This document shows positions 122 to 58,251 of a DNA stretch of 64,000 nucleotides, one piece after another; position 1 is the first letter of the stretch, and the number at the start of each line of letters is the position of its first letter. Origin of the DNA: an uncultured Sphingomonadaceae bacterium (GTDB taxonomy: Bacteria; Pseudomonadota; Alphaproteobacteria; Sphingomonadales; Sphingomonadaceae). Position numbers and translations under genes: made by a program. Where the stretch lies: NCBI GenBank assembly GCA_947501695.1, contig CANMWO010000003.1, positions 149,001 to 213,000 on the forward strand. Reading direction: 5' to 3'. Under the pieces are notes generated by a model. It did not search any database and was not told where the DNA came from. It saw nothing but the letters and a program-made list of their open reading frames with translations.

Positions 122-156
122 CTAATGTCCGCTTTGGGCGCAAAAGCGGACATTAG
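122..156 (+). repeat. GTCCGC dispersed palindrome, copy 1 (right hairpin only)
   Basis: This is a perfect 14-bp inverted repeat (CTAATGTCCGCTTT paired with AAAGCGGACATTAG) around the loop GGGCGCA. It is the cleanest example of the right half of a repeat unit that recurs at 14 loci in the window. It sits downstream of the HxlR regulator gene. No gene is visible in bases 1-235. Confidence 0.9.
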
Positions 157-235
157 ATTTGGAAATTGCAATATTCTAGCGCCGCAAATAAACCGAGTAA
201 TTGCGGTCCCAAGGCGGATCAGAAGCCTTGTGTAT

Positions 236-943
236 TTAGGGAACAGCGACATCGTCATCGATAATCCGTTTCGGACGCACTTTGGCATAGCGGGATTGGG
301 GTATCCAACTGCTTATCGTGCGCATTAGATGTGATGAGCCTGTGATCATCACACCGTCCTCGTCCATCGCATCGCGAATACCGATGTCACCCATCCAAAT
401 TTCGGCCAGTGCAGCCAAGCTGCTTGAAATATAGAGGTCGACGTCCTTTCCAGGGTCATCTGTGCAAAGATCGACTGTATCGGCTTGAGCGATTAACCAC
501 CACCTATTGTGCGTTTCGATATCGCTGAAGTTGACGCTGATGACGGTTTCACCATCCGGTAGTTCTTCGGTTTTAAGGGAGCGATGAAAATCCCACATGA
601 AGCTTCCTGCATCGAGATCTTCGTCACGAATGCGTCGCCGCGCCCATCGCAGTCCCCATCGAGACATCTGGTCAATCAGCGGGGCCAATTCCCGCCCACA
701 TCGCGTAAGATGATATTCGGTGGACTTCTCACTCGCATTTGATTTCTTGATGATCATGCCGTTCGTTTCCATCTGTTTGAGACGGTTACTGAGTACGGTG
801 GGAGAAATACGCGGCAACGCGCTCTGGAAATCCTTATAACGTGAAGCGCCCATAAAGAACTCCCTGAGAATTAGGAGAATCCATCGATCACCGATCATAT
901 CGGCGGCTTTTACAGCGGGGCATAAACTGCCGGAATTGTTCAT
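236..943 (-). CDS. HxlR-family transcriptional regulator
   Basis: A winged-helix DNA-binding protein of the HxlR family. The family core is clear from residue 8: a conserved Cys8 before the first helix, then GDRW, LILR, and the signature RISPTVLSNRLKQME ending near residue 65. HxlR proteins often sense electrophiles or redox state through this early cysteine. Beyond the HxlR domain (about 100 residues) the protein has a C-terminal extension of about 130 residues of unclear role, so it is longer than the usual 100-150 residues. I chose the ATG at 943 because GAGGAAA lies just upstream; an earlier in-frame start at 988 lacks this. It is divergent from the tautomerase gene, and an array of GTAG/CTAC half-sites lies between them, suggesting that it controls both. 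Confidence 0.85.
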   Translation of the reverse strand: MNNSGSLCPAVKAADMIGDRWILLILREFFMGASRYKDFQSALPRISPTVLSNRLKQMETNGMIIKKSNASEKSTEYHLTRCGRELAPLIDQMSRWGLRWARRRIRDEDLDAGSFMWDFHRSLKTEELPDGETVISVNFSDIETHNRWWLIAQADTVDLCTDDPGKDVDLYISSSLAALAEIWMGDIGIRDAMDEDGVMITGSSHLMRTISSWIPQSRYAKVRPKRIIDDDVAVP

Positions 944-1012
944 CGGGTTTCCTCTGCACACAACGTCACTACCAACACGATAGTGCAAAATCGCCAGTTT
1001 CCAACCCTAGCT

Positions 1013-1067
1013 GTAGTTACTACGCAATGTGTAGTGCGATCCTACGCCTTTCGTAGTGGCTTACTAC
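1013..1067. promoter_or_regulatory. Phased GTAG/CTAC operator array in the HxlR-tautomerase divergent promoter
   Basis: Half-sites alternate in orientation at an exact 11-bp step: CTAC at 1020, GTAG at 1031, CTAC at 1042, GTAG at 1053, CTAC at 1064, plus GTAG at 1013. Adjacent pairs form palindromes such as GTAGTTACTAC (1013-1023), CTACGCCTTTCGTAG (1042-1056) and GTAGTGGCTTACTAC (1053-1067). Helical phasing of this kind fits cooperative binding of several regulator dimers on one face of the DNA. The HxlR protein encoded next to it is the obvious candidate. Binding is inferred; the spacing is seen directly. Confidence 0.65.
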
Positions 1068-1455: not shown

Positions 1456-1523
1456 CTAATGTCCGCTTTCGGGATGAAGCGGCCACAGCGCTAGTGACTG
1501 CAATGGGTGCAAGAGCTGCATTA
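1456..1523 (+). repeat. GTCCGC dispersed repeat, copy 2 (degenerate full unit)
   Basis: The left half (CTAATGTCCGCTTTCGGGATGAAGC) is well preserved. The right half, starting with CTAGTG at 1491, is strongly degenerate and its terminal stem is weak. The copy occupies the intergenic space between the tautomerase gene and the 3' end of the acyl-CoA synthetase gene. Confidence 0.75.
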
Positions 1524-1579
1524 AATTTTGAGTATAGAACTGGCTGCTAAAACCAGTACCCGTTTCTTAAAAACAAAAT

Positions 1580-3094
1580 TCAAGTCCAATAGCGTTTCCG
1601 GAGTTCCTGCTTATAGAGCTTCCCTGTTTCATGACGCGGCAGTTTTCTGTCAAAATCTATCGATTGCGGGCATTTGTAATGGCTCAAATTGGTTCGACAA
1701 TGTTCGATCAAGCGGTCCGCCAGTGCCTTACCGCGTTGTTCCCATTTTTTGGGCTGCACAACCGCTTTAACCTCTTCTCCCATATCCGCATTGGGAACTC
1801 CGATAACAGCGACATCATCGACATCGGGATGCTGTACCAGAAGGTTTTCGACTTCCTGCGGGTAGATATTCACCCCGCCGGAAATGATCATGAAGCTTTT
1901 GCGATCGGTGAGATAAAGGTAGCCGTCTTCGTCAACATGACCAATGTCGCCTAACGTGCTCCAATTGGGGTGTTCCGGATGGCGGGAATCTTTTGTTTTC
2001 TGGGGATCATTCAGATATTCAAAATCTTCGCCACCGGCGAAATAGATCAGGCCATCTTCTCCAGCCGGTAGATCCTCGCCATTTTCACCACAAATGTGAA
2101 TAGTAGCGCCTTGCGCTTTCCCGACCGAACCCGGTTTTTCGAGCCATTCTTCTGGTCCGATGGCAGTAGAACCGTTGCCTTCTGATCCCGCATAATATTC
2201 AGAAACAATTGGTCCAAACCAATCGAGCATCTGGTGCTTGGTTTCGATGGGACAGGGAGCAGCAGCGTGCAGAACATTCTGCAAGGAGGAAATATCATAT
2301 CGCTCGCGAACCGCCCTGGATAATTTCAGCAGGCGGATAAACATGGTCGGGACCATCTGAACAAAGGTAACGCGATATTTCTCAATCAGTCGCAGCATCT
2401 CTTCCGCATCAAATCTGGGCATGATGACTATGGTTGCGCCCAGGCGCTGCGGAATGGTGGAAAATATCAGCGGCGCCGCATGATATAGTGGAGCGGGAGT
2501 TAGCAAAACGGAATCCTCATCAAACCCGAAGCTCTGCTGCATCAGTTTGGCGCGAACCATTGGTGCGTCGGCCGGTTCGTCAGACAAAGGGACCCTGACA
2601 CCCTTGGGACGCCCTGTTGTTCCAGAGGAATAGACCATCTGATAGCCCGCTCGTTCGTCGGCAATCGGTTTTTCTGGAAACGGCGCAATTGCCTCAGTCC
2701 ATTGCGTGCCCTCTAAAATGACAAGGGTATCGGAAATCAAGCTGCTTTTGCGATCCAGGAGTTCCTGTGCAGATTTCACGAGAATGTCGGTGACAACAAG
2801 TTTGGCACCGCTGTCGTTCAGGATATAGGCGGCATCTTCTGCGGTAAGTTGGGTCGATATCGGACATATGTAAACGCCCGCTCTTTGGGCCGCCCAGTAA
2901 ACCTCAAAAAATTCAATGCCGTTGGGCAACCAAATACCAATGGCATCTCCATTGTCGATACCAAGCGACCGGAAATAATGCGCGCCCTTGTTCGCGCGCG
3001 TTTCCAGCTCTGCGTAACGCAATGACCGAGAACCATCGGCCAGAATCGTTGCAAGATGGTCCGGGTGGGTTTTTGCAAAAACACGAGGATGCAT
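1580..3094 (-). CDS. Acyl-CoA synthetase (AMP-forming, ANL superfamily)
   Basis: Activates a carboxylic acid to its CoA thioester through an acyl-adenylate. The P-loop motif YSSGTTGRPKG is at about residues 155-165, the A5-type motif EYYAGSEGNG near 300, the A7/A8 region with GGVNIYPQEVEN near 410, and the adenylation lysine in TGKLYK near residue 492. The length of 504 residues is normal. It is closely similar over its length to the synthetase at 38.7-40.3 kb, so the two are paralogues. It is the last gene of a same-strand run with the MFS transporter only 14 bp upstream, so it is probably co-transcribed with the amidohydrolase and transporter. The substrate may be the acid released by the amidohydrolase (inference). 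Confidence 0.9.
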   Translation of the reverse strand: MHPRVFAKTHPDHLATILADGSRSLRYAELETRANKGAHYFRSLGIDNGDAIGIWLPNGIEFFEVYWAAQRAGVYICPISTQLTAEDAAYILNDSGAKLVVTDILVKSAQELLDRKSSLISDTLVILEGTQWTEAIAPFPEKPIADERAGYQMVYSSGTTGRPKGVRVPLSDEPADAPMVRAKLMQQSFGFDEDSVLLTPAPLYHAAPLIFSTIPQRLGATIVIMPRFDAEEMLRLIEKYRVTFVQMVPTMFIRLLKLSRAVRERYDISSLQNVLHAAAPCPIETKHQMLDWFGPIVSEYYAGSEGNGSTAIGPEEWLEKPGSVGKAQGATIHICGENGEDLPAGEDGLIYFAGGEDFEYLNDPQKTKDSRHPEHPNWSTLGDIGHVDEDGYLYLTDRKSFMIISGGVNIYPQEVENLLVQHPDVDDVAVIGVPNADMGEEVKAVVQPKKWEQRGKALADRLIEHCRTNLSHYKCPQSIDFDRKLPRHETGKLYKQELRKRYWT

Positions 3095-3108
3095 CTTATC
3101 GTGCCCTT

Positions 3109-4302
3109 CTATTCCGCAGGCTGAAGCGAGGCTGATCGGAGACTATCCGCCTTGAATGTGGCAGCAGCCATCAGCGTCATTCCAATGACCAGCACAGCAA
3201 CAATAAACCACCCAAGGGTTGCAAAACCTCCGATGTCAGAAATTGTTCCCGCGGCAACCGGTCCCATTGCCCCGCCCATGGTCGCGAAGGCTGGATGCGC
3301 TCCTGCAAGACGGCCTGTTGGATCAACCACCGCCAGACCGCCCAGAAAGGACGGTAACATGATGGCAGGCATAATCATGATCATCGGAACGCCGATGTAG
3401 AATCCGATTTTCTCTCCGCTGATCGCAATGCCAATCACCGCGAGACAAATAAACACACCAACGAGCACCAGCGGTTTCGTACTTCCGAAACGCGCGCCGA
3501 CGATGCCGGCACAGATAGGACCGACGATGGTCAAAAGACCTGCAAAGAAGAAGATTGTACCGATCTTGGCCAGCGGAATGCCGACATCAGCACCTATTCT
3601 TTCGACAAAGGCGGCGATACCTGCCTGACCAAAGAAGAAAATACCCAGGCCCAAAAGCGCAATCCATCCTGCATTCGCTTTGAACCGCCCGGCGGACTTT
3701 TTGTCATTCGATGCTTTTGCCGGAGCACTAATATTTGGGGCTTTGTTGTTTGGAATTACGGTGATCAAAATTAGCCCGATGACGGCAAGAGCAGTGTAGA
3801 GTCCATAGGCACCGTCCAGACCGCCGCGGATTATCGCAAAGGGAACGGCAAGTGCGAGGAGCGAGATGAAAGCGCCCGCGCTGGCATTCACCCAGCCAAA
3901 AGTCATTTCAGGCTTGGGGGTACGTGCGGCGGTTGCCATGATCGAACTGATGACCGTTCCGATACCCAAACCAGCCAATATGCGGCAGATGACCATCATC
4001 GGGATATCCGTCGCTATTACGGTTAGCGCATTGCCAGCAATTACTAGCAATACGCCCGCAACCAGCATTGTTTTCAGATAATATTTTGATATCAGGCGTG
4101 ATCCGACGATGGAAGCTAGCGAAACTGCGACCCCCTCGGCTGTCATAACCAGTCCAGCCTCGGTGCGCGTAGCATCGAACGTGGACACGATGGCGCCGAT
4201 ATTAAATGCAATGGTCAGGGGCGCTGCAAAAACAGTCATGAAAATGACCAGCAAGGCCGCGAGTTGATAGGGCTTTAGCACAACGATGTTATCACTGGTC
4301 AT
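3109..4302 (-). CDS. Major facilitator superfamily transporter
   Basis: A 397-residue inner-membrane protein with about 12 hydrophobic segments typical of MFS carriers. A motif-A-like loop after the second segment is weak (GSRLISKYYLKT), and RILAGLGIGTVISS near residue 108 matches a substrate-path helix of drug/sugar-type MFS proteins. It lies between the amidohydrolase and the acyl-CoA synthetase with gaps of 45 and 14 bp, so an operon is likely. Its direction of transport is not visible in the sequence. Uptake of the amidohydrolase substrate or product is plausible, given a TonB receptor upstream in the same gene run. Confidence 0.85.
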   Translation of the reverse strand: MTSDNIVVLKPYQLAALLVIFMTVFAAPLTIAFNIGAIVSTFDATRTEAGLVMTAEGVAVSLASIVGSRLISKYYLKTMLVAGVLLVIAGNALTVIATDIPMMVICRILAGLGIGTVISSIMATAARTPKPEMTFGWVNASAGAFISLLALAVPFAIIRGGLDGAYGLYTALAVIGLILITVIPNNKAPNISAPAKASNDKKSAGRFKANAGWIALLGLGIFFFGQAGIAAFVERIGADVGIPLAKIGTIFFFAGLLTIVGPICAGIVGARFGSTKPLVLVGVFICLAVIGIAISGEKIGFYIGVPMIMIMPAIMLPSFLGGLAVVDPTGRLAGAHPAFATMGGAMGPVAAGTISDIGGFATLGWFIVAVLVIGMTLMAAATFKADSLRSASLQPAE

Positions 4303-4347
4303 GAGATATTTCTCCCCCGGCAGATTGGCTCACTGATCTTGGCTCAC

Positions 4348-6102: not shown

Positions 6103-6172
6103 TTTTATCCTTTCACGTCATACCCGATACCGCGCAACGCCTGAAGCGGCGTCAGCTTTGGCGAGGGCGAAT

Positions 6173-6847: not shown

Positions 6848-6894
6848 ATTATCCTCGCAAATGATGACGAATTTCAAGCCGTCTTTCTGCTGTT

Positions 6895-9057: not shown

Positions 9058-9226
9058 GTCTTCCCTCCTGTGAGCTGCCGTTTTAGTGCCAGCCCCCAGT
9101 TTTCCGGGTTGCTGACATGACAGTACCTTGTTGTCCGGTTTTCAGTACCGGAAGATGTTATCTATCTAACGCGACATTGATCCAGAACTCTCTAAAATGA
9201 TACGACTGGATATAAAATAATGATAT

Positions 9227-9248: not shown

Positions 9249-9290
9249 GCTCAACTTGGTTCGGAGCACTGAATTCTGTGAGCAGGTATT

Positions 9291-9320
9291 AATGTCCGCT
9301 TTCGGGATATTGCTGACATT
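9291..9320 (+). repeat. GTCCGC dispersed repeat, copy 3 (left hairpin)
   Basis: AATGTCCGCTTTCGGGATAT is followed by TGCTGACATT. The outer arms AATGTC and GACATT pair around the loop characteristic of the left half of the unit. It lies upstream of the tyrosine recombinase gene. Confidence 0.8.
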
Positions 9321-9386
9321 GGGAATACGGAAGTTGCCGGTCGGGTAAGCGCCCCAATTTCGGACGTAGGCACACAAATTCTTAGT

Positions 9387-9403
9387 CCCTGAAAGCGGAC
9401 ATT
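9387..9403 (-). repeat. GTCCGC dispersed repeat, copy 4 (half, inverted)
   Basis: CCCTGAAAGCGGACATT is the reverse complement of the first bases of the left half with one inserted base. It is inverted relative to copy 3 and ends 32 bp before the recombinase start codon, so the two copies bracket a segment of about 65 bp. Confidence 0.75.
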
Positions 9404-9435: not shown

Positions 9436-10068
9436 ATGACGTATTCACAATTCGATCCTGCAGCACAAAACCGCGTGCCATGGAATTTCGGCGCGAAGAT
9501 TGGTCCCAAAAGACCGTTCAATCAAAAACAGATATGGGCAATCCGGTTCTTCCTCGACCGAGAGAAGCGCGTTCGAGATCGGGCACTCTTCGACTTGGCG
9601 ATCGACAGCAAGCTCCGGGGCTGTGATCTGGTTGAACTCAAGATCGGTGATATCGTCAATGGTTCTGACATAAGAAAGCGAGCAGCGATCACACAGCGCA
9701 AGACGGGGCGGCCAGTTCAGTTCGAAATTGCATCGGATGCGCGTGACAGCCTGTTCGCTTGGTTTGAACGTAGGGGTGGGTCACTCGGTGACTATGTTTT
9801 CCCAAGCCGTGTCGATCACTCACGACATTTGAGTACACGCCAATATGCAAGGCTAGTCGATGAGTGGACCCAAGCCATTGGATTGCGGGCTGAGGAATAC
9901 GGTACGCATTCGCTTCGTCGGACGAAGGCCTCGATCATCTACAAGGCCACAGGCAATATCCGGGCAATCCAGATATTGCTTGGTCATTCCAAGATCGAGA
10001 ACACGGTTCGTTATCTAGGCGTCGACATTGAAGACGCTCTTACACTCGCAGAAAAGACGGAAATCTGA
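9436..10068 (+). CDS. Minimal tyrosine recombinase/integrase
   Basis: A 210-residue protein consisting of the tyrosine-recombinase catalytic domain with little N-terminal arm-binding region. All expected active-site residues are present: Arg61 (KLRGCDL), Lys89 (QRKTGRP), His158 and Arg161 (HSLRR), His184 (LGHSK) and nucleophile Tyr193 (VRYLG). AAGGAG lies upstream of the ATG. Close relatives of this short integrase type are, to my knowledge, common in proteobacterial genomes without a well-defined role. It is flanked on both sides by GTCCGC palindromes (9291-9403 and 10101-10128), the same family that delimits accessory genes elsewhere in the window. That makes these repeats its possible recombination sites or its own boundary; this is inference only. 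Confidence 0.9.
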   Translation: MTYSQFDPAAQNRVPWNFGAKIGPKRPFNQKQIWAIRFFLDREKRVRDRALFDLAIDSKLRGCDLVELKIGDIVNGSDIRKRAAITQRKTGRPVQFEIASDARDSLFAWFERRGGSLGDYVFPSRVDHSRHLSTRQYARLVDEWTQAIGLRAEEYGTHSLRRTKASIIYKATGNIRAIQILLGHSKIENTVRYLGVDIEDALTLAEKTEI

Positions 10069-10101: not shown

Positions 10102-10128
10102 GTCCGCTTCTGGGGGTGAAAGCGGATG
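10101..10128 (+). repeat. GTCCGC dispersed repeat, copy 5 (divergent right hairpin)
   Basis: CGTCCGCTT and AAAGCGGATG pair around a TCTGGGGGTG-like loop. It is a diverged copy immediately downstream of the recombinase, so the recombinase gene is bracketed by the repeat family. Confidence 0.65.
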
Positions 10129-17696: not shown

Positions 17697-17765
17697 CTAA
17701 TGTCCGCTTTCGGGATAAAGCAGCCACAACACTAGTTTCCGCTATGGGCGCAAAAGCGCACAACT
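17697..17765 (+). repeat. GTCCGC dispersed repeat, copy 6 (full unit)
   Basis: A full two-half unit: CTAATGTCCGCTTTCGGGATAAAGCA (left half), then CACTAGTTTCCGCTATGGGCGCAAAAGCGCAC (right half, split here only for quotation as CACTAGTTTCCGC and TATGGGCGCAAAAGCGCAC). The last stem bases are mutated. It ends 25 bp before the 3' end of the membrane hydrolase gene. A further short palindrome, AGCGGACATTCCGCT, lies at 17647-17661 in the same 257-bp gap. Confidence 0.85.
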
Positions 17766-17789
17766 CCCAACAGCGCGGTTGCCGTCGAT

Positions 17790-19663: not shown

Positions 19664-19691
19664 CTAGTGTCCGCTTTCGGGATAAAGCCGC
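19664..19691 (+). repeat. GTCCGC dispersed repeat, copy 7 (left half)
   Basis: CTAGTGTCCGCTTTCGGGAT followed by AAAGCCGC is the left half of the unit. The right half is missing; the copy stops directly at the 3' end of the short-chain dehydrogenase gene. Confidence 0.8.
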
Positions 19692-19694
19692 CGC

Positions 19695-46901: not shown

Positions 46902-46936
46902 CTGGTGTCCGCTTTGAACGCAAAAGCGGACATTGG
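46902..46936 (+). repeat. GTCCGC dispersed palindrome, copy 8 (right hairpin)
   Basis: CTGGTGTCCGCTTT and AAAGCGGACATTGG pair around GAACGCA. It lies between the TetR gene and the lipoprotein gene and is the left limit of the repeat-delimited accessory region. Confidence 0.85.
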
Positions 46937-47458: not shown

Positions 47459-47515
47459 TTCGGGATACTGAAGACACAACGCTAGCGTCCGCTATGGGCG
47501 CAAAAGCGGACACTG
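47459..47515 (+). repeat. GTCCGC dispersed repeat, copy 9 (truncated left half plus right hairpin)
   Basis: TTCGGGATACTGAAGACACA is the remainder of a left half starting at the base after the lipoprotein stop codon. It is followed by GCTAGCGTCCGCTATGGGCG and the closing stem CAAAAGCGGACACTGG. Confidence 0.85.
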
Positions 47516-47590
47516 GAAAAACAGTTGATTGCTAGCTCTGGAGTTTTGCGACATTGAGACCGACTTTAACCAATAGTTCGGGATGAGTTG

Positions 47591-48085: not shown

Positions 48086-48191
48086 CCATTGCAAATTGCA
48101 CAACTATTGATTTCAACCAATGCCTTTTGCCCAAACTAATGTGAAAAACCCTATTCAATACCACTAGCCTTCAGTCACCATGCCAAAACTC

Positions 48192-48260
48192 CAATGTCCG
48201 CTTTCGGGATATTGCGGACACAACCCTAGTGTCCGCTATGGGCGCAAAAGCGGACATTAG
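48192..48260 (+). repeat. GTCCGC dispersed repeat, copy 10 (intact full unit, reference copy)
   Basis: The best intact two-hairpin unit. Left half: CAATGTCCGCTTTCGGGATA with closing TTGCGGACA. Linker: CAACCC. Right half: CTAGTGTCCGCTATGGGCG with closing CAAAAGCGGACATTAG. Each half can fold on itself. It lies 8 bp from the stop of the MarR gene and separates it from the unknown protein upstream. Confidence 0.92.
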
Positions 48261-48268
48261 ACTGCGTT

Positions 48269-48793
48269 TCAACGCTCAGGGACACCGCCTTCGACGATTG
48301 TCCCAACTCTGCTCATAAACTCCATGCCGTTGGCGATTTCCTCATCCGTTAGCTCGTCGGAAATCAACTTGATGAAGGCTTCTGTTCTTCGCATCATTTC
48401 ATCCACTGTCGCTTTTCCCTTTTTGGTCAGGCGAATTACTTTTTCTCGCGCCGATGACTTGCTCTCTTTGATTGAAATGAGGCTGAGATTTTTGTCCGCC
48501 ATTGCGCGCAATACTTTGGATATGGCGGGACTGCCCAAATCATACCATTCGCCAATGAGCCGTTCGATAGTTTTACGATGAATTATATGACCATCCTCCC
48601 CCTTTGAGTGAATGATCCACAATATTACCGTCTGATGCCGTGTCAGGTTTGATCCGCTCAACTGCTTCTCAACGGCCATCCCTACCGAATAGTGAAACGG
48701 GTAAAATAGCTTCAGGAAGTTTTGCGGAGCGGTTTCCCGTTTAATGGGATATTCTACACCGAAATCAGATTGCTCTTTCACCCTATGCTCCAT
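48269..48793 (-). CDS. MarR-family transcriptional regulator
   Basis: A winged-helix regulator of about 174 residues. The MarR core is HQTVILWIIHSKGEDGHIIHRKTIERLIGEWYDLGSPAISKVLRAMADKNL, followed by a wing with SSAREKVIRLTKKGKATVDE. The ATG at 48793 is chosen over an upstream TTG; ribosome sites are weak. It is divergent from the P450-TonB receptor-SnoaL genes across 300 bp containing a consensus-like promoter and nested inverted repeats, so it probably controls that unit and itself. Confidence 0.82.
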   Translation of the reverse strand: MEHRVKEQSDFGVEYPIKRETAPQNFLKLFYPFHYSVGMAVEKQLSGSNLTRHQTVILWIIHSKGEDGHIIHRKTIERLIGEWYDLGSPAISKVLRAMADKNLSLISIKESKSSAREKVIRLTKKGKATVDEMMRRTEAFIKLISDELTDEEIANGMEFMSRVGTIVEGGVPER

Positions 48794-49014
48794 AGCCAGA
48801 ATAACGCTCAATTTTATAACTTGTGATCGGACAGACTCGATGAACGAAAAACCATTGAAAGTCTATCTCTTCAATTGATGGGAAGGGTCTTCGATATGGA
48901 AAGTGTCCAGTCCAGGGCCATCGTCCACAAAGTACGTCGTCTATGTTTATGGAGTCATAAACTATTATAAAAAATGAATATTATTTTAACTTCTGCTCAA
49001 TTTCAATCGACTAG

Positions 49015-49044
49015 TTGACAAATAAATCCTCTCAATCTTATTAT
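49015..49044 (+). promoter_or_regulatory. Sigma-70-type promoter of the P450 operon
   Basis: A perfect -35 TTGACA (49015-49020) is followed after 18 bp by TATTAT (49039-49044). Transcription would begin near 49051, about 45 bases before the P450 start codon. The left arm of the large inverted repeat lies between the -35 and -10 boxes. Confidence 0.6.
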
Positions 49045-49092
49045 GTCGCAAAGAAATGGTGTCCATAGGACATATTAAGGTTGAGAGGATTT
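49024..49092. promoter_or_regulatory. Nested inverted repeats over the P450 promoter and ribosome site
   Basis: AAATCCTCTCAATCTTA (49024-49040) and TAAGGTTGAGAGGATTT (49076-49092) are 17-bp inverted arms with one mismatch and 35 bp between them. Inside lies the perfect palindrome TGTCCATAGGACA (49060-49072). One arm lies between the -35 and -10 boxes and the other contains the ribosome site of the P450 gene. A pair of operator sites for the divergent MarR protein is the simplest reading. Confidence 0.6.
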
Positions 49093-49096
49093 AGGA

Positions 49097-50329
49097 TTGA
49101 CGAAACCTGCGTTTAGTGTTGACCAATTGACCCGTCCGGAGGTGATCCGGAATCCTTATCCCTATTATGATCTGTTGCGTGATCAATCGCCGGTTTTTGG
49201 TTATCGGGACTATCCACCGGGCACCATGCCGGGCGTGGATGAGCCAAAGCCTGCATGGGTTATGCTTGATTTTGATGACGTTTCTAAAGTCGCATGGGAT
49301 CATGAGAGCTTTTCATCGCGTGATAGCCTGCAGGAAAGTTCTTCTGCGCCAACTTTGATGCTCGTAAACCATGATCGGCCGGAACACACCCGGCTGCGGA
49401 AAATTGCTGCCAAGGTTTTTCAACCCTCTTCCATCAAGGCACTCGCCCCCGAAGTTGATAAACTTGTGGCGGCCAGCATGGATGATTTCTTCACTGTTGA
49501 TCGGCCGGTTGATGTGATGGCCGATTATTGCGCGATGCTGCCGAGCAGAGTGATGGTATATTTGTTCGGTATGCCAGCCAAGATGGATCGGGATGTCCGC
49601 AATTGGGCAACCGCTTTCATGCTGTCGGCCGATATCAGCGCGGAAGAACGGCAATCATATAACAGGGAGGCGATGGCGTTCTTTGAACAGCACGTCAAAG
49701 AACAGATGAGCCGGATTGAACGGGGTGAGGAAACCCAAGGTCCGCTTCTCAACGCATTTATTCGTACTGAGGTCGATGGAGACAAACTATTGTTTGATGA
49801 GATTGTCCGGTTCTGCATGACCGCCACGGTGGCAGGGGCGGAGACGACTTCATTTTATCTCGGTAATCTTATCGCTGTTTTTGCTGACTTTCCGGATATC
49901 TGGAACCGGTTTGTCGAGGAGCCGGCGCTATTTGATGCAATTTACAAAGAAACCTTGCGCTTTCATGGCCCTCCACAGCGACTGTTTCGAGTGGCAACGC
50001 GCGATATCACGATTGGCTCTGCCGATATTAAGCGAGGCGATTGGGTGGCCTGTTTTTTTGGTGCCGCCAATTATGATCCCGAAGTATTTCCAGAACCTTA
50101 TGAGTTCAAACTGAACCGCAAAAATGCGAGCCGCCATATGAGTTTTGGCTATGGCATTCATCGTTGTTTGGGGGCCCCGCTCGCCCATTTGGAAGCCGAG
50201 TCAACAACGCGCCTGTTGAGAGAACGCTATAAAAAAATCGAACGTTCCGGAGAGGTCGATTGGCAGGATGTCAGTCTTTTGAACCATGGTCTGGCAAGCA
50301 ATCCCGTGACCTTCCGAGGCAAGGATTAA
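49097..50329 (+). CDS. Cytochrome P450
   Basis: A 410-residue soluble bacterial P450. I-helix motif AGAETT at 246-251, ExxR at Glu285-Arg288, and heme loop FGYGIHRCLG at 350-359 with Cys357 as ligand. The usual threonine pair of the I-helix is present. It differs clearly from the other P450 in the window. TTG start with AGAGGATTTAGGA upstream. A TonB receptor gene follows 66 bp downstream and then a SnoaL-like gene, suggesting uptake and hydroxylation of a hydrophobic compound under control of the divergent MarR regulator. Electron-transfer partners are not encoded here. Confidence 0.92.
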   Translation: MTKPAFSVDQLTRPEVIRNPYPYYDLLRDQSPVFGYRDYPPGTMPGVDEPKPAWVMLDFDDVSKVAWDHESFSSRDSLQESSSAPTLMLVNHDRPEHTRLRKIAAKVFQPSSIKALAPEVDKLVAASMDDFFTVDRPVDVMADYCAMLPSRVMVYLFGMPAKMDRDVRNWATAFMLSADISAEERQSYNREAMAFFEQHVKEQMSRIERGEETQGPLLNAFIRTEVDGDKLLFDEIVRFCMTATVAGAETTSFYLGNLIAVFADFPDIWNRFVEEPALFDAIYKETLRFHGPPQRLFRVATRDITIGSADIKRGDWVACFFGAANYDPEVFPEPYEFKLNRKNASRHMSFGYGIHRCLGAPLAHLEAESTTRLLRERYKKIERSGEVDWQDVSLLNHGLASNPVTFRGKD

Positions 50330-50395
50330 CCATCAGTCAGCTTTCAAGAAAATTAAATAACGATGATCCAAATCATCGCAATAGGGAGGAAAAAA

Positions 50396-52822
50396 ATGGA
50401 CATTAGAAATCGGAAGTCGGCGTCGAGAGTGACGGCAAGCCTGATCGCAATCACGGCGATGTCAGCACCCGTCCATGCACAAGAAAATACGGATAATGGC
50501 AATCAAATAGTATCTGCTGAGGCAGCAACGGATAACATGATCGTTGTCACTGCAAATCGCCGAGAAGCATCGCTTCAGGATACACCTTTGTCTATTTCCG
50601 CTTTCGGTGAAGATGAGCTTAAAAACCGCTCAATCACATCGATAGAACAAGTCGGTGCAATCGCGCCTGGTGTCCAGATTTCGACCTATCAGGGCGATAC
50701 GTCCATATTCATCCGTGGTATCGGCACGCCGACCATCATCGCCGGTACGGATAGCTCAACGGCGACCTATGTTGATGGCGTCTACATCAGCCGTCCCGCC
50801 GCGATCGGACCACAATTTTTTGACATCGAACGGATAGAGGTTTTGCGCGGCCCGCAGGGCACACTCTATGGTCGCAACGCAACGGGCGGGGCGGTCAATA
50901 TCGTGACCAATCGTCCGGCCGATATTCTGGAAGGCAATTTGCAACTAACGGTTGGAAATTATGACCGCTTTCGTGTCGCCGGAGCAGTGAGTGGGCCGCT
51001 AAGCGATGCTATCCTCGCGCGCTTGGCGTTCCAACTGGAAGATCGCGGCGGTTACGCGACCGTAACCCGACCAGATAATTCCACCGAGCGTGTAGAAGAT
51101 AAGGAAGACTTTTCTGTTCGCCTCACTGTGGAAGCAGATATCTCTCCCGATGCAACCTTAACCGTGAACGGTGATTATTATCGTGCCGATGACAAAGCGA
51201 ATGCCTATTTTTATGCCAGTGCGGGCTATGCCGATGAAGTTCCGGACTGGTATGGCACAAGAGAAGGCTCTCAGACCTTACCCTATTTTGCGATAAAAAA
51301 TGCAGGCCGGGTTTCCGCCGTCACTTCCAGAAATATTTTCGCTGATGTACCCTTTTTCAATGAAGTCGAAAACTGGGGACTTGGGGCGACGTTGGACTGG
51401 AATATCGCGGACTATAATCTCAAAGTAATTGGTAGCTACAGAGATACTAATCCGGTTTCGCAAAATGAATTTGATCTGTCCGACACGTTTAACAATTATG
51501 TCGGACGGGAAGAAGGTCATTGGCAGTGGAGCAGCGAGATGCAGTTGAGCTCCCCGGTGGATCAACCTTTTTCATGGATTGCTGGCGGTTATTATTTCCA
51601 AGAACGCAATGTTATCGACAATGATATTTTTGGAAATTTTTGGGAACCTATCCTCATTCAAGGGTTTACGGATCTTCAAGCCGCCGGCGTTCTGCCGCCA
51701 TTTCCGGTCGTATTCCCTGAAACGGACCTATGTTGTGAATTGCATTTAAGCGGGGAACAGGAAACAAAGGCTTGGGCGCTTTATCTGGATACGCAGTGGG
51801 ACGTATCGGATCAGTTTACGGTTCGGTTGGGTGGTCGCTATAGTGAAGAGAAACGAGACGGCCGCCAGAATTTCGATCTGGTGATGCTCCCCAACACGCG
51901 CATTGCGCCCAATACGATATTCTTTCCCAACGCGATCACCGAAGACCGTGCTGCGGCTCAACCCGATCCATTCGGTTTCATCATCGCCCCGGTCAATGGC
52001 CCGACGACATTCAGTGCCTTTACGCCCAAAATCGGCATTGATTATAAACCCAATGATGATGTGCTGCTCTATGCATCGATACAGCGCGGTTTCAAAAGCG
52101 GTGGCTATAATATCGGCAGCAGTCAGCGTGATCCGTTTGAACCGGAGAAAATCTGGTCTTACGAAATCGGCGCGCGGTCCGAGTTATTTGACCGGGCCTT
52201 GTTGCTCAATGCATCGGCATTTTGGTATGATTACACCAACCTTCAGGCACAGGATAGCGTCGGCAACCAACCCATAATTCGAAATGTAGGCAAAGCGCGG
52301 GTGCGCGGCTTTGAGGTGGAAACGGTAGCACGGCCCAGTGGTTTCTTCAGATTAGAAGGGGCTGTCACTTACGTAGATGCACAGTTTACCGAGGGGCAGC
52401 TTACAGAGTCTTTACGACCCGCGCCCCTGACACAGGTACCGGGCACTTTGCTGCGGGACCTGGATGGTTTGCGCTTGCCGCGTGCGCCGCGCTGGAAGTT
52501 CAGCGTCGCTGGTCAAGTAGACCAGCCACTGGGTGATATGGGCAATATTACGGCACGCGCGGAATATCATTGGCAGAGCAAAATATATTTCACCGTGTTC
52601 AATATCGATGCGGCGTCACAGGAAAGCTATGGCTTGCTGCGCGCAAGCCTTGGCTTCACCAGCGCTGATGAAAAATGGAGCATTCGGCTGTTCGGGGACA
52701 ATCTAACTGGTGAGACCTATTTCACCAATCAAATCCTTACAGGAACCGTCTATGGCGCAGAATTTGTGGGACCGCTTGGCGCGCCGCGGACCTATGGCAT
52801 CGATCTGGGGTTGAGTTTCTGA
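50396..52822 (+). CDS. TonB-dependent outer-membrane receptor
   Basis: An 808-residue receptor with a signal peptide ending near VHAQ (residue 29), a TonB-box-like DNMIVVTANRR, and a plug with the pattern IERIEVLRGPQGTLYGRNATGGAVNIVTN near residue 135-165. The barrel ends in Phe (GIDLGLSF). GGGAGGAAA supports the ATG at 50396. It sits between a P450 and a SnoaL-like protein, so the ligand is probably a hydrophobic organic compound rather than a metal complex (inference). Confidence 0.92.
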   Translation: MDIRNRKSASRVTASLIAITAMSAPVHAQENTDNGNQIVSAEAATDNMIVVTANRREASLQDTPLSISAFGEDELKNRSITSIEQVGAIAPGVQISTYQGDTSIFIRGIGTPTIIAGTDSSTATYVDGVYISRPAAIGPQFFDIERIEVLRGPQGTLYGRNATGGAVNIVTNRPADILEGNLQLTVGNYDRFRVAGAVSGPLSDAILARLAFQLEDRGGYATVTRPDNSTERVEDKEDFSVRLTVEADISPDATLTVNGDYYRADDKANAYFYASAGYADEVPDWYGTREGSQTLPYFAIKNAGRVSAVTSRNIFADVPFFNEVENWGLGATLDWNIADYNLKVIGSYRDTNPVSQNEFDLSDTFNNYVGREEGHWQWSSEMQLSSPVDQPFSWIAGGYYFQERNVIDNDIFGNFWEPILIQGFTDLQAAGVLPPFPVVFPETDLCCELHLSGEQETKAWALYLDTQWDVSDQFTVRLGGRYSEEKRDGRQNFDLVMLPNTRIAPNTIFFPNAITEDRAAAQPDPFGFIIAPVNGPTTFSAFTPKIGIDYKPNDDVLLYASIQRGFKSGGYNIGSSQRDPFEPEKIWSYEIGARSELFDRALLLNASAFWYDYTNLQAQDSVGNQPIIRNVGKARVRGFEVETVARPSGFFRLEGAVTYVDAQFTEGQLTESLRPAPLTQVPGTLLRDLDGLRLPRAPRWKFSVAGQVDQPLGDMGNITARAEYHWQSKIYFTVFNIDAASQESYGLLRASLGFTSADEKWSIRLFGDNLTGETYFTNQILTGTVYGAEFVGPLGAPRTYGIDLGLSF

Positions 52823-52859
52823 TGAGCAAAAGTGCCAATAAACATAATGGAGAAACGCA

Positions 52860-53255
52860 ATGATTGCCCCAATTGATGTCACCCAGAATGTCTTCGAGGC
52901 ATTTGGCGCCCATGACGTCGATACGATCGTCGAATGGCTGCATCCCGATATCCGGATCGAATTTTATGGTCCGAACATCATTCCCTATGCCGGCAATTAT
53001 AACGGCCTCGAAAAAGCGCGTGGTTTTTTTGAAACCGTTTTATCCTCGGTGGATATTCATCAGTTTGATCCAGAGGATTATATTTGTGAGGGCGACAAAG
53101 TCGTCGTTACAGGGCATCTAAGGCTCACCGCGCTTTCGACGGGTAAACTCATCGAATCTGATTTCGTCCATGTTATCACGGTGGCGGACGAAAAGTGGCT
53201 TTTGTTCAGGGACTTTATGAATACTTTCGAAGCCGTCAGCGCTTTTTCCGCTTAA
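52860..53255 (+). CDS. SnoaL-like / nuclear transport factor 2-fold protein
   Basis: A 131-residue NTF2-fold protein with TQNVFEAFGAHDVDTIVEWLHPDIRIEFYGP at the N-terminus, then a cone-shaped beta sheet with VVVTGHLRLTALSTGKLIESDFVHVITV. Family members are isomerases, cyclases, hydrolases or binders. GGAG lies before the ATG. It is the third gene of the P450-receptor unit and may act on the oxidised product. Repeat copy 11 follows 57 bp downstream. Confidence 0.82.
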   Translation: MIAPIDVTQNVFEAFGAHDVDTIVEWLHPDIRIEFYGPNIIPYAGNYNGLEKARGFFETVLSSVDIHQFDPEDYICEGDKVVVTGHLRLTALSTGKLIESDFVHVITVADEKWLLFRDFMNTFEAVSAFSA

Positions 53256-53312
53256 CCGAATTTGGGTTTCGATATTGTTTTTGACGTTGATGCTGGGGGA
53301 CAGGTGTCAATC

Positions 53313-53381
53313 CTAGTGTCCGCTGTTGGGATGAAGCAGCCACAACGCCAGTGTCCGCTTTGGGCGCAAAAGCGGACATTA
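53313..53381 (+). repeat. GTCCGC dispersed repeat, copy 11 (full unit)
   Basis: CTAGTGTCCGCTGTTGGGAT with AAGCAGCCACAACGC form a slightly diverged left half. CAGTGTCCGCTTTGGGCGC with AAAAGCGGACATTAA form a near-perfect right hairpin. It separates the SnoaL-like gene from the serine hydrolase gene. Confidence 0.9.
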
Positions 53382-53483
53382 AAGAACAAACCCTTTGACT
53401 GGCGAATTACCGCTAAAGCTCATCTTTGATGAGCATCACGAGTGGCCCAAAAAGTGTGAAATCAGCTTTAAATGCTCGGGCGG

Positions 53484-54949: not shown

Positions 54950-54981
54950 CTAGTGTCCGCTTTCGGGATATAGCGGACATT
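54950..54981 (+). repeat. GTCCGC dispersed repeat, copy 12 (single hairpin)
   Basis: CTAGTGTCCGCTTTCGGGATA then TAGCGGACATT, with the left-type loop but well-paired stems. It lies between the serine hydrolase and the convergent serine recombinase gene. Confidence 0.88.
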
Positions 54982-55013: not shown

Positions 55014-55664
55014 CTAGCCGTCCTGACAATTCCAATATCTAAACATTCGCGAAACACTTGATCGATACCACTTCCCACCAGATGCAGTCTTCAAGCCTGA
55101 TACGTTCAGTTGATCGGCAACCGCTTGCAAGTTCATTCCCGGCGCGAGTCCTAAGGCTTGAAGCCTGGGCTTAACAGACTGCGAAAATTGGACCGCTTGA
55201 TCCCGATTTATATCCGCTAGTTTTTGTCCGTGCACACCCAACTTCACACCCCGGCGCTTTGCAGCCTTCAACGCCGCTTTCGTGCGTTCACTGATCCGTC
55301 GCCCCTCTTCTTCTGCCATGGCCGCGTACACATGAAGCATGAACCTATCGGCTTGGGGTATATCAGCAGCGAGAAAATCTACCCCGCTTTCCATCAACCC
55401 ACTGATGAAGTGGACATTTCGGGCAAGCCGATCCAGTTTTGCAATCACCAATCGAGTTTTATGCTTGCGGCAATATGAGATTGCGGCTTCCAGCTTAGGG
55501 CGCTTGGATTTCTTGCCACTCTCAACCTCTATGAACTCTTCGAACGGTTCATCACCAAGCAGCATTATGATTGCGTGCCGCTGGGCCTCCAGCCCCAACC
55601 CTGATTGCCCCTGTCGCTGAGTGCTTACACGCAAGTAAGCGGCTGGCTTTGTATCGCTAGTCAT
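55014..55664 (-). CDS. Serine recombinase (resolvase/invertase family)
   Basis: A 216-residue serine recombinase. The catalytic domain starts with AAYLRVSTQRQGQSGLGLEAQ, with nucleophile Ser14 and Arg12, and carries the conserved KLDRLARN segment near 76-83 and the EEEGRRISERTKAALKAAKRRG helix near 120. A C-terminal helix-turn-helix (LQAVADQLNVSGLKTASGGKWYRSSVSRM) should bind DNA. It is the size of a resolvase/invertase or small serine integrase. It lies next to repeat copy 12 and upstream of nothing else obviously mobile; its neighbour at 55.7-56.8 kb is a protein of unknown function on the same strand. Confidence 0.9.
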   Translation of the reverse strand: MTSDTKPAAYLRVSTQRQGQSGLGLEAQRHAIIMLLGDEPFEEFIEVESGKKSKRPKLEAAISYCRKHKTRLVIAKLDRLARNVHFISGLMESGVDFLAADIPQADRFMLHVYAAMAEEEGRRISERTKAALKAAKRRGVKLGVHGQKLADINRDQAVQFSQSVKPRLQALGLAPGMNLQAVADQLNVSGLKTASGGKWYRSSVSRMFRYWNCQDG

Positions 55665-55725
55665 GCTGGAAACACAAGAGTGGGAATGTCACAGGTAAAG
55701 GTTGGTTTATGTGTTACGGATCGGC

Positions 55726-56817
55726 TCATAGATGCTCCTCCGACATTGGGTAGCGAAGCATAGCCATGCCTAATTGTATCGCTCCCTCAGCCATTGCATC
55801 TGCCGACAGCCCAAAGCCGACCATATCTGCGCGGTTTCTAATCTTGCGGCCGGTTACCCAGATTTGACGATTGGCACATAGGGAAGACTTCGAACGGAAA
55901 TACAGCTTTCGAAGCAATTGACGGGCCGTGGACTTTGGCACGGTATTTCTGAGGTAGCAGGACAAATCATCATCAATAGAAGACAGCCAATATAGATATT
56001 TCCGTCCGGATCGCGTGTTTCCGTCAAAAGCATAACGGGGAATAGACGCAATTTCATAGTCATGCCCGAAATCATCTGATTGCTGATGATCGGCTGCCCC
56101 CCCTTCTTGCCATCCATGCCAAAGCAGAGCGGTCAGGGCAGGCAATATCGTTTGGGTCCGTTTTACCGCTTCCACGCATGATGTTACCAAGTCCGGTGAA
56201 CAACCGGCAATAGAGCCCAGTACCGATATCGGATCACCGTCTGCCGGTTTGAGGTGCAAATGGTCTGAAGAGAGCCTTGCAGTGCCCATTGCATAATGAA
56301 GGGCAATCGCTCGCTGATCAATTGGAGCACTATTGTCCTGTAGCAGACTTTGTCTTTGCTTGGGAGTTGCGAAGGCCAACCTATCTCGCTCAATCTGCAA
56401 TTCTTGGTCATGTTCTATTACTGTTAGCAAATCGTCAGCGGAACGATCTTTTGGTACGCTGCAAAGCCTAGTGACGAGATATGCTGCAACGCGCCATTCA
56501 CCGCCCAATTTTGTCCGCAGCCGTTTTGACCGAGCTAGCGCAATTACAGAATCGCACAAACCAATATTAGTCAGTCCGACATCTTCCCATGCGATAATTG
56601 GCAAGCGCCTCCAGAAGCTTTTCTCATCTAATTGAATTGCAAACATTGTTGCTCGTAACGCTTGTGCCACATCGTTTCGTCTGATGGCTTTCTGAAGTAA
56701 GCTTTTTGCGATCCAGATATCAGGCAACGATGCCAGCAACTGCGTAGGCTCTTGAAATCGAGCTAGGTCTTCTGCGATCCGTTCGACCAATTCCTGGTCA
56801 CTTACAAATTTAGTCAT
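55726..56817 (-). CDS. Protein of unknown function next to the serine recombinase
   Basis: A predicted cytoplasmic protein of 363 residues, rich in helices, with no confident family. The segment SLLQKAIRRNDVAQALRATMFAIQLDEKSFWRRLPIIAWEDVGLTN (about residues 40-85) resembles the collar-type helices in the C-terminal half of RarA/MgsA-like clamp-loader relatives, where a similar LQKxIR...DVxxAL...RRLxxIAxEDIGLA pattern occurs; no ATPase motifs are present. GGGAG supports the ATG at 56817. It is transcribed toward the serine recombinase with a 61-bp gap, and the pair is bracketed by repeat copies 12 and 13. Confidence 0.65.
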   Translation of the reverse strand: MTKFVSDQELVERIAEDLARFQEPTQLLASLPDIWIAKSLLQKAIRRNDVAQALRATMFAIQLDEKSFWRRLPIIAWEDVGLTNIGLCDSVIALARSKRLRTKLGGEWRVAAYLVTRLCSVPKDRSADDLLTVIEHDQELQIERDRLAFATPKQRQSLLQDNSAPIDQRAIALHYAMGTARLSSDHLHLKPADGDPISVLGSIAGCSPDLVTSCVEAVKRTQTILPALTALLWHGWQEGGAADHQQSDDFGHDYEIASIPRYAFDGNTRSGRKYLYWLSSIDDDLSCYLRNTVPKSTARQLLRKLYFRSKSSLCANRQIWVTGRKIRNRADMVGFGLSADAMAEGAIQLGMAMLRYPMSEEHL

Positions 56818-57145
56818 ACTGCACTCCCATTGTTCCATGGGAGCAAAACAGTTTACCCCTTTAAGGGCGTAACTAGGAGCGGCTGGTAGTCAATTATTGA
56901 TACTGAAAGTTCCAAATGGATGCAGGTAATTTCACAAAATGAGGATTTGGGATCCTATCAGTTCTCATTGATAGCGTGATTGCAACTAGTGTCCGCAATA
57001 TCCCGAAAGCGGACATTAAACTTAGCAATGTTAAATCAGCTGCAGGTAATACAAGATCAAAACCACGACCATGAAAACCTTAGCTATCGGGTTGCGGACA
57101 AACATGATAGTCACTTCGCAGGGTCGCTGATCGGGAGACAGCGAA
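56818..57145. other. Gene-free stretch with repeat copy 13 and divergent promoters
   Basis: These 328 bases separate the divergent unknown protein and methyltransferase genes. The only structure I can support is repeat copy 13; no gene or clear operator is seen. Confidence 0.6.
56986..57018 (-). repeat. GTCCGC dispersed repeat, copy 13 (single hairpin, inverted)
   Basis: CTAGTGTCCGCAATATCCCG then AAAGCGGACATTA. Its loop is the reverse complement of the left-type loop, so this copy is inverted relative to most others. It lies between the unknown protein and the methyltransferase gene. Confidence 0.88.
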
Positions 57146-58207
57146 ATGACGGAGCAAGTGAACGAAGCCGAATTAGAAGCACTAGCCGGAAAAGTAATCG
57201 GTGATGTAGCCGGAGCTATGAGCCTTTTTATGTCCTATATCGGCGATCAGGCCGGGGTATACGATATTATGGATGGCGCAGGCGCGTTGACCGTGGATGA
57301 ACTCGCTGCGAAAACCGGACTCAATTCAAAATATCTATCGCAATGGTTGGGCTCAAATGCTGCGGCCGGTTATGTCACTTATCATGCTGATGAAGACCGG
57401 TTTTCATTGTCGGAAGAACAAGCCCTTATTTTTGCGAGAGAAGGACAGCCAGCCTGTATGCAAGGGTTTTTCCAATCCGTGGTTTCGCAATATGAAACAC
57501 AAGCCAAAGCAGTCGAGACTTTCAAGTCGGGCGAAGGACGGCCATGGGGTGATCATAGTGAGTGTTGTTTCTGCGGCACAGATCGCTTCTTCCGCCCCGG
57601 CTATGCTGCAAACCTGATCGACAATTGGATACCATCGCTCGGCGGGGTTGAAGAAAAGCTCAAGGCTGGAGCAAAGGTTGCGGACATTGCCTGCGGACAT
57701 GGATCATCCACAATATTGATGGCGGAAGCCTATCCAAATTCGACAATTGTCGGAATTGATTTTCATGGACCGTCTATCGAGGAAGCAAAAGCCAAGGCCA
57801 AAAAAGCAGGCGTCAGCAACGTGGAGTTCCAGGTTGCCCGGGCTCAAGACTTTGAAGGTGATGATTTCGACTTCGCATGTATTTTTGATGCACTGCATGA
57901 CATGGGAGACCCGGTTGGGGCCGCGTCACATATCAAAAAAGCGCTGCGGCCGGATGGCACTTTCATGCTCGTCGAACCGCTCGCAGGAGACAGCATGAGT
58001 GAAAACCTGCATCCACTGGGTCAAATTTTCTATGCTTTCTCAACCACGATTTGTACTCCAACATCGGTAGCGCAGGAAGTGGGCCTAGGTTTGGGTGCAC
58101 AGGCGGGTCAGAAGCGGCTGACTGAAGTGCTCAATCAAGCCGGTTTTGCGAATGTCAGTCGTGCAACGGAAACGCCGACCAATATGGTGCTTGAGGTAAC
58201 TGGCTAA
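57146..58207 (+). CDS. Class I SAM-dependent methyltransferase with N-terminal winged helix
   Basis: A 353-residue protein. Residues 20-95 form a winged-helix-like dimerisation region (LTVDELAAKTGLNSKYLSQWLGSNAAAGYV), as in Rv2258c-type and plant O-methyltransferase-like enzymes. The Rossmann methyltransferase domain has motif I VADIACGHGSST (Asp180 to Thr189), an acidic residue IVGIDFHGP after beta-2, and DALHDMGDP after motif III. It probably methylates a small molecule; the substrate is unknown. GGGAGACAGC lies upstream. The gene stands alone between repeat copies 13 and 14. Confidence 0.88.
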   Translation: MTEQVNEAELEALAGKVIGDVAGAMSLFMSYIGDQAGVYDIMDGAGALTVDELAAKTGLNSKYLSQWLGSNAAAGYVTYHADEDRFSLSEEQALIFAREGQPACMQGFFQSVVSQYETQAKAVETFKSGEGRPWGDHSECCFCGTDRFFRPGYAANLIDNWIPSLGGVEEKLKAGAKVADIACGHGSSTILMAEAYPNSTIVGIDFHGPSIEEAKAKAKKAGVSNVEFQVARAQDFEGDDFDFACIFDALHDMGDPVGAASHIKKALRPDGTFMLVEPLAGDSMSENLHPLGQIFYAFSTTICTPTSVAQEVGLGLGAQAGQKRLTEVLNQAGFANVSRATETPTNMVLEVTG

Positions 58208-58216
58208 CAGTCCCGC

Positions 58217-58251
58217 CTAGTGTCCGCTTTTGCGCCCAAAGCGGACACTAG
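58217..58251 (-). repeat. GTCCGC dispersed palindrome, copy 14 (perfect, inverted)
   Basis: CTAGTGTCCGCTTT and AAAGCGGACACTAG are perfect 14-bp arms around TGCGCCC, the reverse complement of the loop in copy 1. It lies 9 bp after the methyltransferase stop and is the right limit of the repeat-delimited region; none is seen in the island beyond it. Confidence 0.92.

Follow-up and report, generated by a model that had tools for sequence, protein, structure and literature searches.

Paired palindromic repeats of a marine sphingomonad genome as probable recombination sites of a mobile gene-cassette system

The stretch analysed here (the window, 64,000 nucleotides) comes from the 3.6-Mb genome of a marine sphingomonad assembled in 7 contigs (G000, positions C3:149001-213000). 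It contains a conserved backbone block of 27 kb and, on both sides of it, accessory genes including those for a cytochrome P450, TonB-dependent receptors and a small tyrosine recombinase, with a dispersed palindromic repeat between them (Table 1). We found that these repeats are breakpoints of homology between related genomes and that whole modules move precisely from site to site. Sequence comparison makes it very probable that they are site-specific recombination sites of a mobile gene-cassette system, joined at their cores by a recombinase.

Each palindrome is formed by two inverted arms of 11-13 bp (consensus CTARYGTCCGC) flanking an asymmetric core of about 8 bp. The R site reads CTARYGTCCGC - TWTGGGCGCAAAA - GCGGACRYTAG, with TGGGCGCA as core, while the L site has the same left arm, the centre TTTCGGGATA (core TCGGGATA) and a looser right arm. 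An L palindrome (31 bp), a 4-bp linker and an R palindrome (35 bp) make up the composite unit. A preliminary description of this DNA had reported a unit of two hairpins, about 69 bp long, at 14 loci; the two palindromes and the short linker were confirmed, with a length of 71 alignment columns, free of gaps in all 14 composite copies aligned. The repeat is far above chance, and 12 of the 14 places carry L, R or both, the other two being one inverted arm (9387) and a palindrome with a third centre (10101). Copies 13 and 14, described as inverted, are indeed an L site (56989) and an R site (58217) on the minus strand, and copy 4 is the inverted single arm. When up to 3 mismatches are allowed, the L consensus is matched 14 times in the window where 1.69 would be expected; 8 of these are L sites, and the other 6, each with 3 mismatches, are R sites or the half site, recognised through the shared arm; the R palindrome has 7 matches against 0.00 in 100 shuffles. 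As had been stated for 19.7-46.9 kb and for the part beyond 58.3 kb, no site above the score threshold was found in the first interval, nor after 58,251 and on to contig position 253,000.

Table 1. Repeat sites, module edges and associated genes in the window (window coordinates)
Feature	Position	Strand	Remark
R site, centre TGGGCGCA, arms CTARYGTCCGC	122..156	+	position weight matrix (PWM) score 57.6 bits; model R1 match G000:C3:149090-149157
L+R composite, R half decayed; left module edge	1456..1525	+	homology to G317 begins at 1458 (95.9%)
Genes of the 1456-9319 module: AMP-binding enzyme, major facilitator superfamily (MFS) transporter, amidohydrolase, TetR regulator, TonB-dependent receptor	1580-9057		Pfam
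L site; right edge of the 1456-9319 module	9289..9319	+	homology to G318 stops at 9316 (94.2%)
Single arm (half site) upstream of the window recombinase gene	9386..9403	-	
Small tyrosine recombinase, 210 aa, sister subfamily	9436..10068	+	56% identical to the R-flanked subfamily
Palindrome with third centre GTCCGCTTCTGGGGGTGAAAGCGGAT, downstream of the window recombinase gene	10102..10127	+	
L+R composite	17697..17766	+	
L site, left end of the conserved 27-kb backbone block	19664..19694	+	homology start in 10/10 relatives at 19668-19697
R site, right end of the backbone block	46902..46936	+	homology ends at 46883-46913 in 9/10 relatives
R site	47482..47516	+	decayed L directly before (~47449-47481), in which the listed position 47459 falls
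L+R composite, with the mobile module starting at its R core	48191..48260	+	
Mobile module (99.5% identical to G317 over 5.1 kb), from an R core up to an L core, with genes for a winged-helix protein, a cytochrome P450, a TonB-dependent receptor and a SnoaL-like protein	48226..53343	+	
L+R composite, with the mobile module ending at its L core	53313..53382	+	
L site	54950..54980	+	20 bp past single gene 53538-54929 (Pfam Beta-lactamase family PF00144)
L site, inverted	56989..57019	-	
R site, inverted	58217..58251	-	9 bp past the stop of methyltransferase gene 57146-58207

When related genomes are aligned, homology tends to end at the sites. Of 485 sites, only 2 are found 60 bp or more within a cross-genome alignment, against 217 of 754 site-free intergenic gaps (Fisher 7e-50), and 31% of all positions lie that deep; both interior cases are one site seen from two genomes, inside a shared module. 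We obtained 59 shared segments, of which 18 touched the ends of the fetched stretches and were not counted. The 41 counted segments have 45 of their 82 ends within 15 bp of a site in both sequences, a position for which only 1.95% of bases qualify, and the proportion is 23 of 52 when the 15 segments that are copies of the recombinase unit (see below) are left out.

The block at 19.7-46.9 kb, named a catabolic core in the preliminary description, is backbone of the genus: a 4.5-kb probe taken at its left end finds a match in each of the 32 genus genomes, in a few of them only a partial one. Homology to relatives begins at the L site at its left end in all 10 cases and stops at the R site at its right end in 9, whereas the tenth relative (G278) gave no match at the right end of the block in the stretch fetched. 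The sites therefore mark the end of its conserved surroundings, and the earlier proposal that the repeats delimit accessory genes holds; a relative with the same neighbours beyond the block was not found. Fifteen collinear variable gaps were observed among the compared stretches, 5 of them holding sites, and in 2 of these all four edges lie at sites. Both of these slots differ in length and content: the first measures 30.0 kb in G000 (C1) and 4.0 kb in G317, with flanks 91-92% identical, and the second 3.1 kb in one genome and 2.5 kb in the other.

Recent transfer is evident for window 48,195-53,342, which is 99.46% identical to G317:C3:424268-429415, in another species and in a different context. 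Elsewhere the two genomes share 84.0-88.6% identity in the conserved block and 91-93% in some other collinear stretches. The stretch 1,456-9,319 is common to G317 and G318 at 94-96%. Against G317 the left end of the match falls at a site, and against G318 the right end does, the opposite ends of these matches being cut by the ends of the fetched stretches. Fresh duplicates within a single genome, of 608 bp at 100% (G243) and 447 bp at 99.6% (G318), both end at sites. Among the roles that had been offered for the repeat, that of a recombination site agrees with these results, given that the sites are homology breakpoints and modules are exchanged from site to site. Five of ten further proteins encoded between sites have no Pfam match, and the others include a SUKH-family protein, a ring-hydroxylating oxygenase and a diguanylate cyclase; a search with defence families gave two weak matches among the ten. 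Directly before the P450 gene of the mobile module there is also a 25-bp inverted repeat (window 49023-49093, 92% complementary, 21 bp between arms), which may be an operator.

The junctions of modules at least 97% identical locate the exchange within the site. Over 10 junctions, the arm on the module side differs at 4 of 126 positions and the outer arm at 24 of 120 (Fisher 3e-5); for comparison, R or L copies paired at random disagree at 16-34% of their arm positions. These are 10 of 12 junctions, one pair of unlike site types and one junction without a site on one side having been dropped, and two of the ten belong to a segment whose other end is off-site or cut by the stretch end. Conservation is thus limited to the arm next to the module, which places the exchange point between the two arms, and this is where crossover took place in recent modules. 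We had first guessed a crossover in the outer arm, and replaced it by the core between the arms on the junction data and on those from Escherichia coli given below. A cassette would then span the stretch between two successive cores (for instance, an R core and then an L core), each arm would travel with the neighbouring gene, and the L+R composite would be the connector of two cassettes. In dif and loxP, two arms surround a core, and by analogy with them the core may be taken as the crossover region, with a circle carrying the cassette as the putative intermediate.

A module of about 760 bp, present in most of the genomes compared, encodes a 208-aa (amino acid) protein with a phage-integrase domain (PF00589, E 1.7e-21). 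Intact copies were found in four species (G000, G153 twice, G243 and G317), broken ones in G000 and G323, and a relic in G318. All 5 intact copies have an R site upstream on the opposite strand and another downstream on the gene strand, and the TAA or TAG of the downstream site is the stop codon of the recombinase. The residues R59, K87, H156, R159, H182 and Y191 do not vary in any of the 24 aligned homologues; the table of homologues has 40 rows, in which the window gene is counted twice and two shortened reading frames are included. In the structure model (mean predicted local distance difference test score, pLDDT, 83.8, with low confidence for the first 20 residues), a short stretch precedes the helices of the catalytic domain, and the nearest solved folds are XerA (5hxy, the best), XerH, IntI4 (2a3v) and Cre. 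The R-K-HxxR-H-Y residues, together with the modelled fold of the catalytic domain, are those of the tyrosine recombinase superfamily, and the usual N-terminal DNA-binding domain is apparently lacking in this protein of about 200 aa. In the window itself, the sister gene lies between the inverted arm and the third-centre palindrome, which are copies 4 and 5 of the earlier list.

Strong site matches (E <= 0.001) number 59-101 per genome where the recombinase gene is intact, and 86 and 18 in the genomes with a relic or a split copy. The other 26 genomes have no more than 23 each (Mann-Whitney 2e-4, genomes with any intact, split or relic copy compared with those having none). We suggest that the 208-aa enzyme, whose own gene lies between two inverted R sites, is probably the agent that cuts the sites between their arms and would join cassettes in chromosomes, plasmids and prophages. 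Alternatively, the host XerC and XerD could act on the sites, as they do on the dif modules of Acinetobacter, the small recombinase being a passenger: modules bounded by Xer-recognised sites are a known pattern (PMC9455709), and genes for tyrosine recombinases of about 300 aa, inferred to be XerC/XerD from their size, are present in 8 of the 8 genomes searched. We find this quite improbable, since R sites enclose the unit of the small recombinase itself wherever it is intact (5 of 5 copies) and related palindromes are kept beside its homologues.

These homologues were found in 64 of 398 Pseudomonadota genomes (E <= 1e-30, G000 included) and in 434 of 72,556 plasmid records, but in only 3 of 50,697 phage records. 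Around 27 of them, one per genome, the best matches to a related palindrome (GTCCGCT..TTGGCCG..AGCGGAC) in the adjacent 300 bp of either side have on average 7.4 and 7.5 mismatches in 25, against 9.4 and 9.8 in control windows 900-1200 bp off (p 1.7e-10; 27 of 29 loci were used, the two with short flanks being left out). A two-palindrome site of like build was first noticed at 75% identity on 4 Klebsiella plasmids. Relatives of this plasmid site occur on 444 plasmids (199 over at least 80% of the length) and in 101 of 5426 E. coli genomes (91 over at least 80%). Such two-palindrome sites are on plasmids of Klebsiella, Enterobacter and Pantoea (NZ_CP054998.1, positions 115307-115380, our locus L116, and other records), with no annotated feature under the match in the 15 records listed.

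In E. coli, the sites lie in prophages called P2-like from their gene order, within a cargo slot that we take to be the Z/fun locus of such prophages. The genes for tail sheath and tail-fibre assembly are adjacent in the prophage of strain AVS0578, and in LS4 a DUF6650 gene, an L+R composite and a 378-bp gene stand between them. HS13-1 is without the DUF6650 unit, and its site consists of the left arm of the first LS4 site and the right arm of the second, joined in the shared 7 bp TGAGCGA; the same 378-bp gene follows, and then a recombinase gene 55% identical to the sphingomonad one. Over 10 prophages, the 60 bp on the left are 87% alike and CTGACAGTCTGCTTTGAGCGA 95%, and the next 60 bp only 37%. 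In these post-core 60 bp, 44 of the 45 prophage pairs are below 50%, the remaining pair having the same cargo, and most sequences start with something like a right arm. At the other end of the cargo, 6 of the 10 prophages have an L-type half-site (TGGCAC or TAGCAC, then the right arm) joined to phage DNA. Of 5426 E. coli genomes, 1012 match an 80-bp probe made of the phage flank, arm and core at the left border, and seven of the ten prophages were picked among 25 matches listed of these 1012; ten of 13 fetched stretches were used, L267 having neither cargo nor site and L263 and L275 being other loci, and two of the ten prophages carry the same cargo.

The E. coli cargo genes encode HNH endonucleases, an S1 peptidase, a FlxA-like protein and unknowns, and the cargo of loci L266 and L268-L274 is varied behind one fixed half-site, so the slot would be worth mining as a catalogue of cassette-borne genes. 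The 99.5% module of the window shares its form, from R core to L core, with this prophage cargo.

Exchange at these places could also be the work of RecA, with homologous recombination using short shared repeats passively and the recombinase gene as an ordinary passenger. The sites are indeed similar, 31-71 bp long and places of exchange, and G318 is rich in them without an intact recombinase gene. This explanation seems unlikely to us, because crossover in recent modules lies between the arms, exchange in E. coli takes place at a 7-bp core with differing sequence beyond it, and, taken as a group, recombinase homologues from across the phylum have retained related palindromes on either flank.

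Several results weigh against recombinase-joined cassettes. The compared stretches were chosen around sites, and the fractions given above describe site-rich DNA rather than whole genomes; 10 of the 15 collinear variable gaps hold no site. With all 44 junctions down to 87% identity, the asymmetry of the arms is not significant (20 against 24, p 0.27), and although its loss at older junctions would be expected if these had exchanged again, the result does not help. One of the 10 recent junctions, with the site as chosen by the script, has both arms shared. In G318 there are 86 strong site matches but the gene survives only as a relic, and G278, with 22 such matches, lacks any close homologue; the recombinase gene thus need not be present now, and the enzyme may act from elsewhere, may have been lost later or may be a passenger. 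Many of the 27 homologue flanks are too decayed to count singly, and the relation to the palindrome holds as a group.

The count and location of the sites raise two other possibilities. A search of the genome with the composite model gave 134 matches at E <= 1, over 25 of which repeat a site already read on the other strand, and G000 carries about 100 sites, the weakest of them uncertain; this is a lower bound, with 150 of 2098 first-look candidates scored by the model. In several clusters, copies of one orientation succeed each other at intervals of 300-900 bp, separated by a small gene. The composite pattern is present in 12 stretches of 5 named assemblies, all from uncultured Sphingomonadaceae or Sphingomonadales, and exact L sequences are nearly restricted to the genus, matching 13 of 298 family genomes (8-62 copies in 5 of 6 sampled genus members, 1-2 in each of the other 8 matching genomes). 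No viral contig matched in a search with the exact 18-mer. By our home-made gene caller, 437 of 476 sites are intergenic; among the ends of neighbouring genes, 149 of 583 3' ends but 11 of 376 5' ends fall no more than 30 bp from a site, and convergent gaps are over-used (161 of 425 sites, against 265 of 1322 gene pairs). Another dispersed sequence, GGGAATACGGAAGTTG(C/T)CGGTCGG..AAGCGCCCCAATTTCGGACGT, was seen whole or in part against or near L or R sites at several places of the genome (window 9318-9370; loci L014 and L011/L012).

The closeness to 3' ends and the over-use of convergent gaps are what transcription terminators or other RNA hairpins at gene ends would produce, and a transcription-end role had been suggested before. 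That bias is the only part of the suggestion that stood. There is no run of T within the unit, and Rfam gives no match to the repeat at the gathering threshold. Among 183 distinct R copies from G000 and its relatives, the arms pair at 0.848, the same value as with shuffled partners (0.848, reached in 283 of 500 shuffles), and L arms likewise pair no better than shuffled ones. Variable arm positions assort independently (chi-square p 0.17 and 0.26), and each arm holds one sequence consensus rather than the complement of its partner. The compensated stems and selection on structure proposed in the preliminary description are therefore not supported. As the position at homology breakpoints would be unexpected for RNA hairpins as well, we regard this explanation as barely credible.

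Repetitive extragenic palindromic (REP) elements, or miniature inverted-repeat transposable elements (MITEs), moved singly by a transposase, would equally be palindromic, intergenic (437 of 476) and high in copy number, and G000 has one gene for a Y1 (REP-type) transposase. REP sequences with their REP-associated tyrosine transposase (RAYT) were our first working idea, dropped when this sole gene (C4:1882-2547, minus) proved to be flanked by a different repeat, GGTGACAGTTTACTTAATCCCC. The gene (locus L032) encodes a 221-aa RAYT-type transposase between inverted copies of GGTGACAGTTTACTTAATCCCC, and a similar sequence is found beside the Y1 genes of G317 and G318 (L102, L103). Y1 genes are present in 13 of the 32 genus genomes at 22 loci, none of which is directly flanked by the L/R repeat (gene and up to 1.5 kb per side), the sole composite near one (G000 C4) being more than 1 kb away, and the site-rich G243 and G153 (66 and 59 site matches) have no Y1 match. 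Small collinear gaps holding a site, as expected from solo insertion, were not found either. The check proposed earlier, for empty sites lacking exactly one unit, gave none, the nearest cases being the slots of differing content. A mobile REP-like element is thus a very poor candidate, despite the resemblance to RAYT-type REP or REPIN sequences in being short, palindromic, intergenic, numerous and nearly confined to one genus: these sites have no cognate Y1 gene at the 22 loci, and they bound exchanged genes, with no lone insertion found.

The sites recall integrons in having a tyrosine recombinase, palindromic sites, runs of small modules and a site often right after the gene end. An integron attC site was our second idea, suggested by the copies in the same orientation 300-900 bp apart, and it failed on core triplets, integrase and structure. 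An attC is bounded by RYYYAAC and GTTRRRY (PMC3053210). In 187 distinct R sites, the left AAC occurs in 12, the right GTT in 34 and both in 3. No protein in 8 genus genomes exceeds the cut-off of the integron integrase model TIGR02249 (265 bits), the nearest reaching 100.8 bits (G203) and the recombinase itself (P0001) 20.7 bits. In attC, structure is conserved over sequence, whereas here the arm sequence itself is conserved and R arms pair as shuffled ones do; the lack of arm covariation makes a folded single strand unlikely. By these three features this is not an integron, and it also differs in that the 208-aa recombinase travels as a cassette and the sites are scattered over the chromosome.

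Closer to the present case are the pdif modules of Acinetobacter plasmids, which are site-bounded and found as the same modules in many contexts (PMC9455709). Modules bounded by sites and exchanged whole between contexts are what we observed here. The differences are a dedicated small recombinase bounded by sites, and sites that are both chromosomal and on plasmids. The dif site has an 11-6-11 layout. The invertases FimB and FimE are likewise of about 200 aa and act on inverted-repeat sites. Our recombinase scores 24.4 and 20.9 bits with their models, against cut-offs of 221 and 222, and there is no switch of a single promoter by phase variation. No description of these sites or of the recombinase was found in the open-access papers searched, which is no proof of absence.

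On the strength of these sequence relationships, we consider it fairly likely that another mobile cassette system, beside integrons and Xer/dif, is spread across Pseudomonadota, in which a recombinase of about 200 aa, itself a cassette, joins genes and operons at palindromic sites with dif-like arms and R or L cores, in sphingomonad chromosomes, in enterobacterial plasmids and in the cargo slot of P2-like prophages of E. coli. Integrons are the model for the shuffling of single genes in bacteria. If the proposal is true, many small islands, plasmid segments and prophage cargo whose movement lacked an explanation would receive one, with boundaries predictable from sequence, and the exchange of accessory genes in the P2-like cargo slot of E. 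coli would be explained. The site model would allow accessory genes to be cut out of genome sequences by computer, as cassettes, and with so small a recombinase and a prophage slot in E. coli, the mechanism is open to tests in a laboratory strain.

Two further observations concern the window. At 55014-56817, between the L sites at 54950 and 56989, a short serine recombinase of the resolvase family lies beside a gene with a weak MgsA-like match. Positions 1752-1964 and 39846-40058 form an inverted match of 213 bp (76%) between two genes, which are likely paralogous enzymes, the first copy being within the gene for the AMP-binding enzyme.

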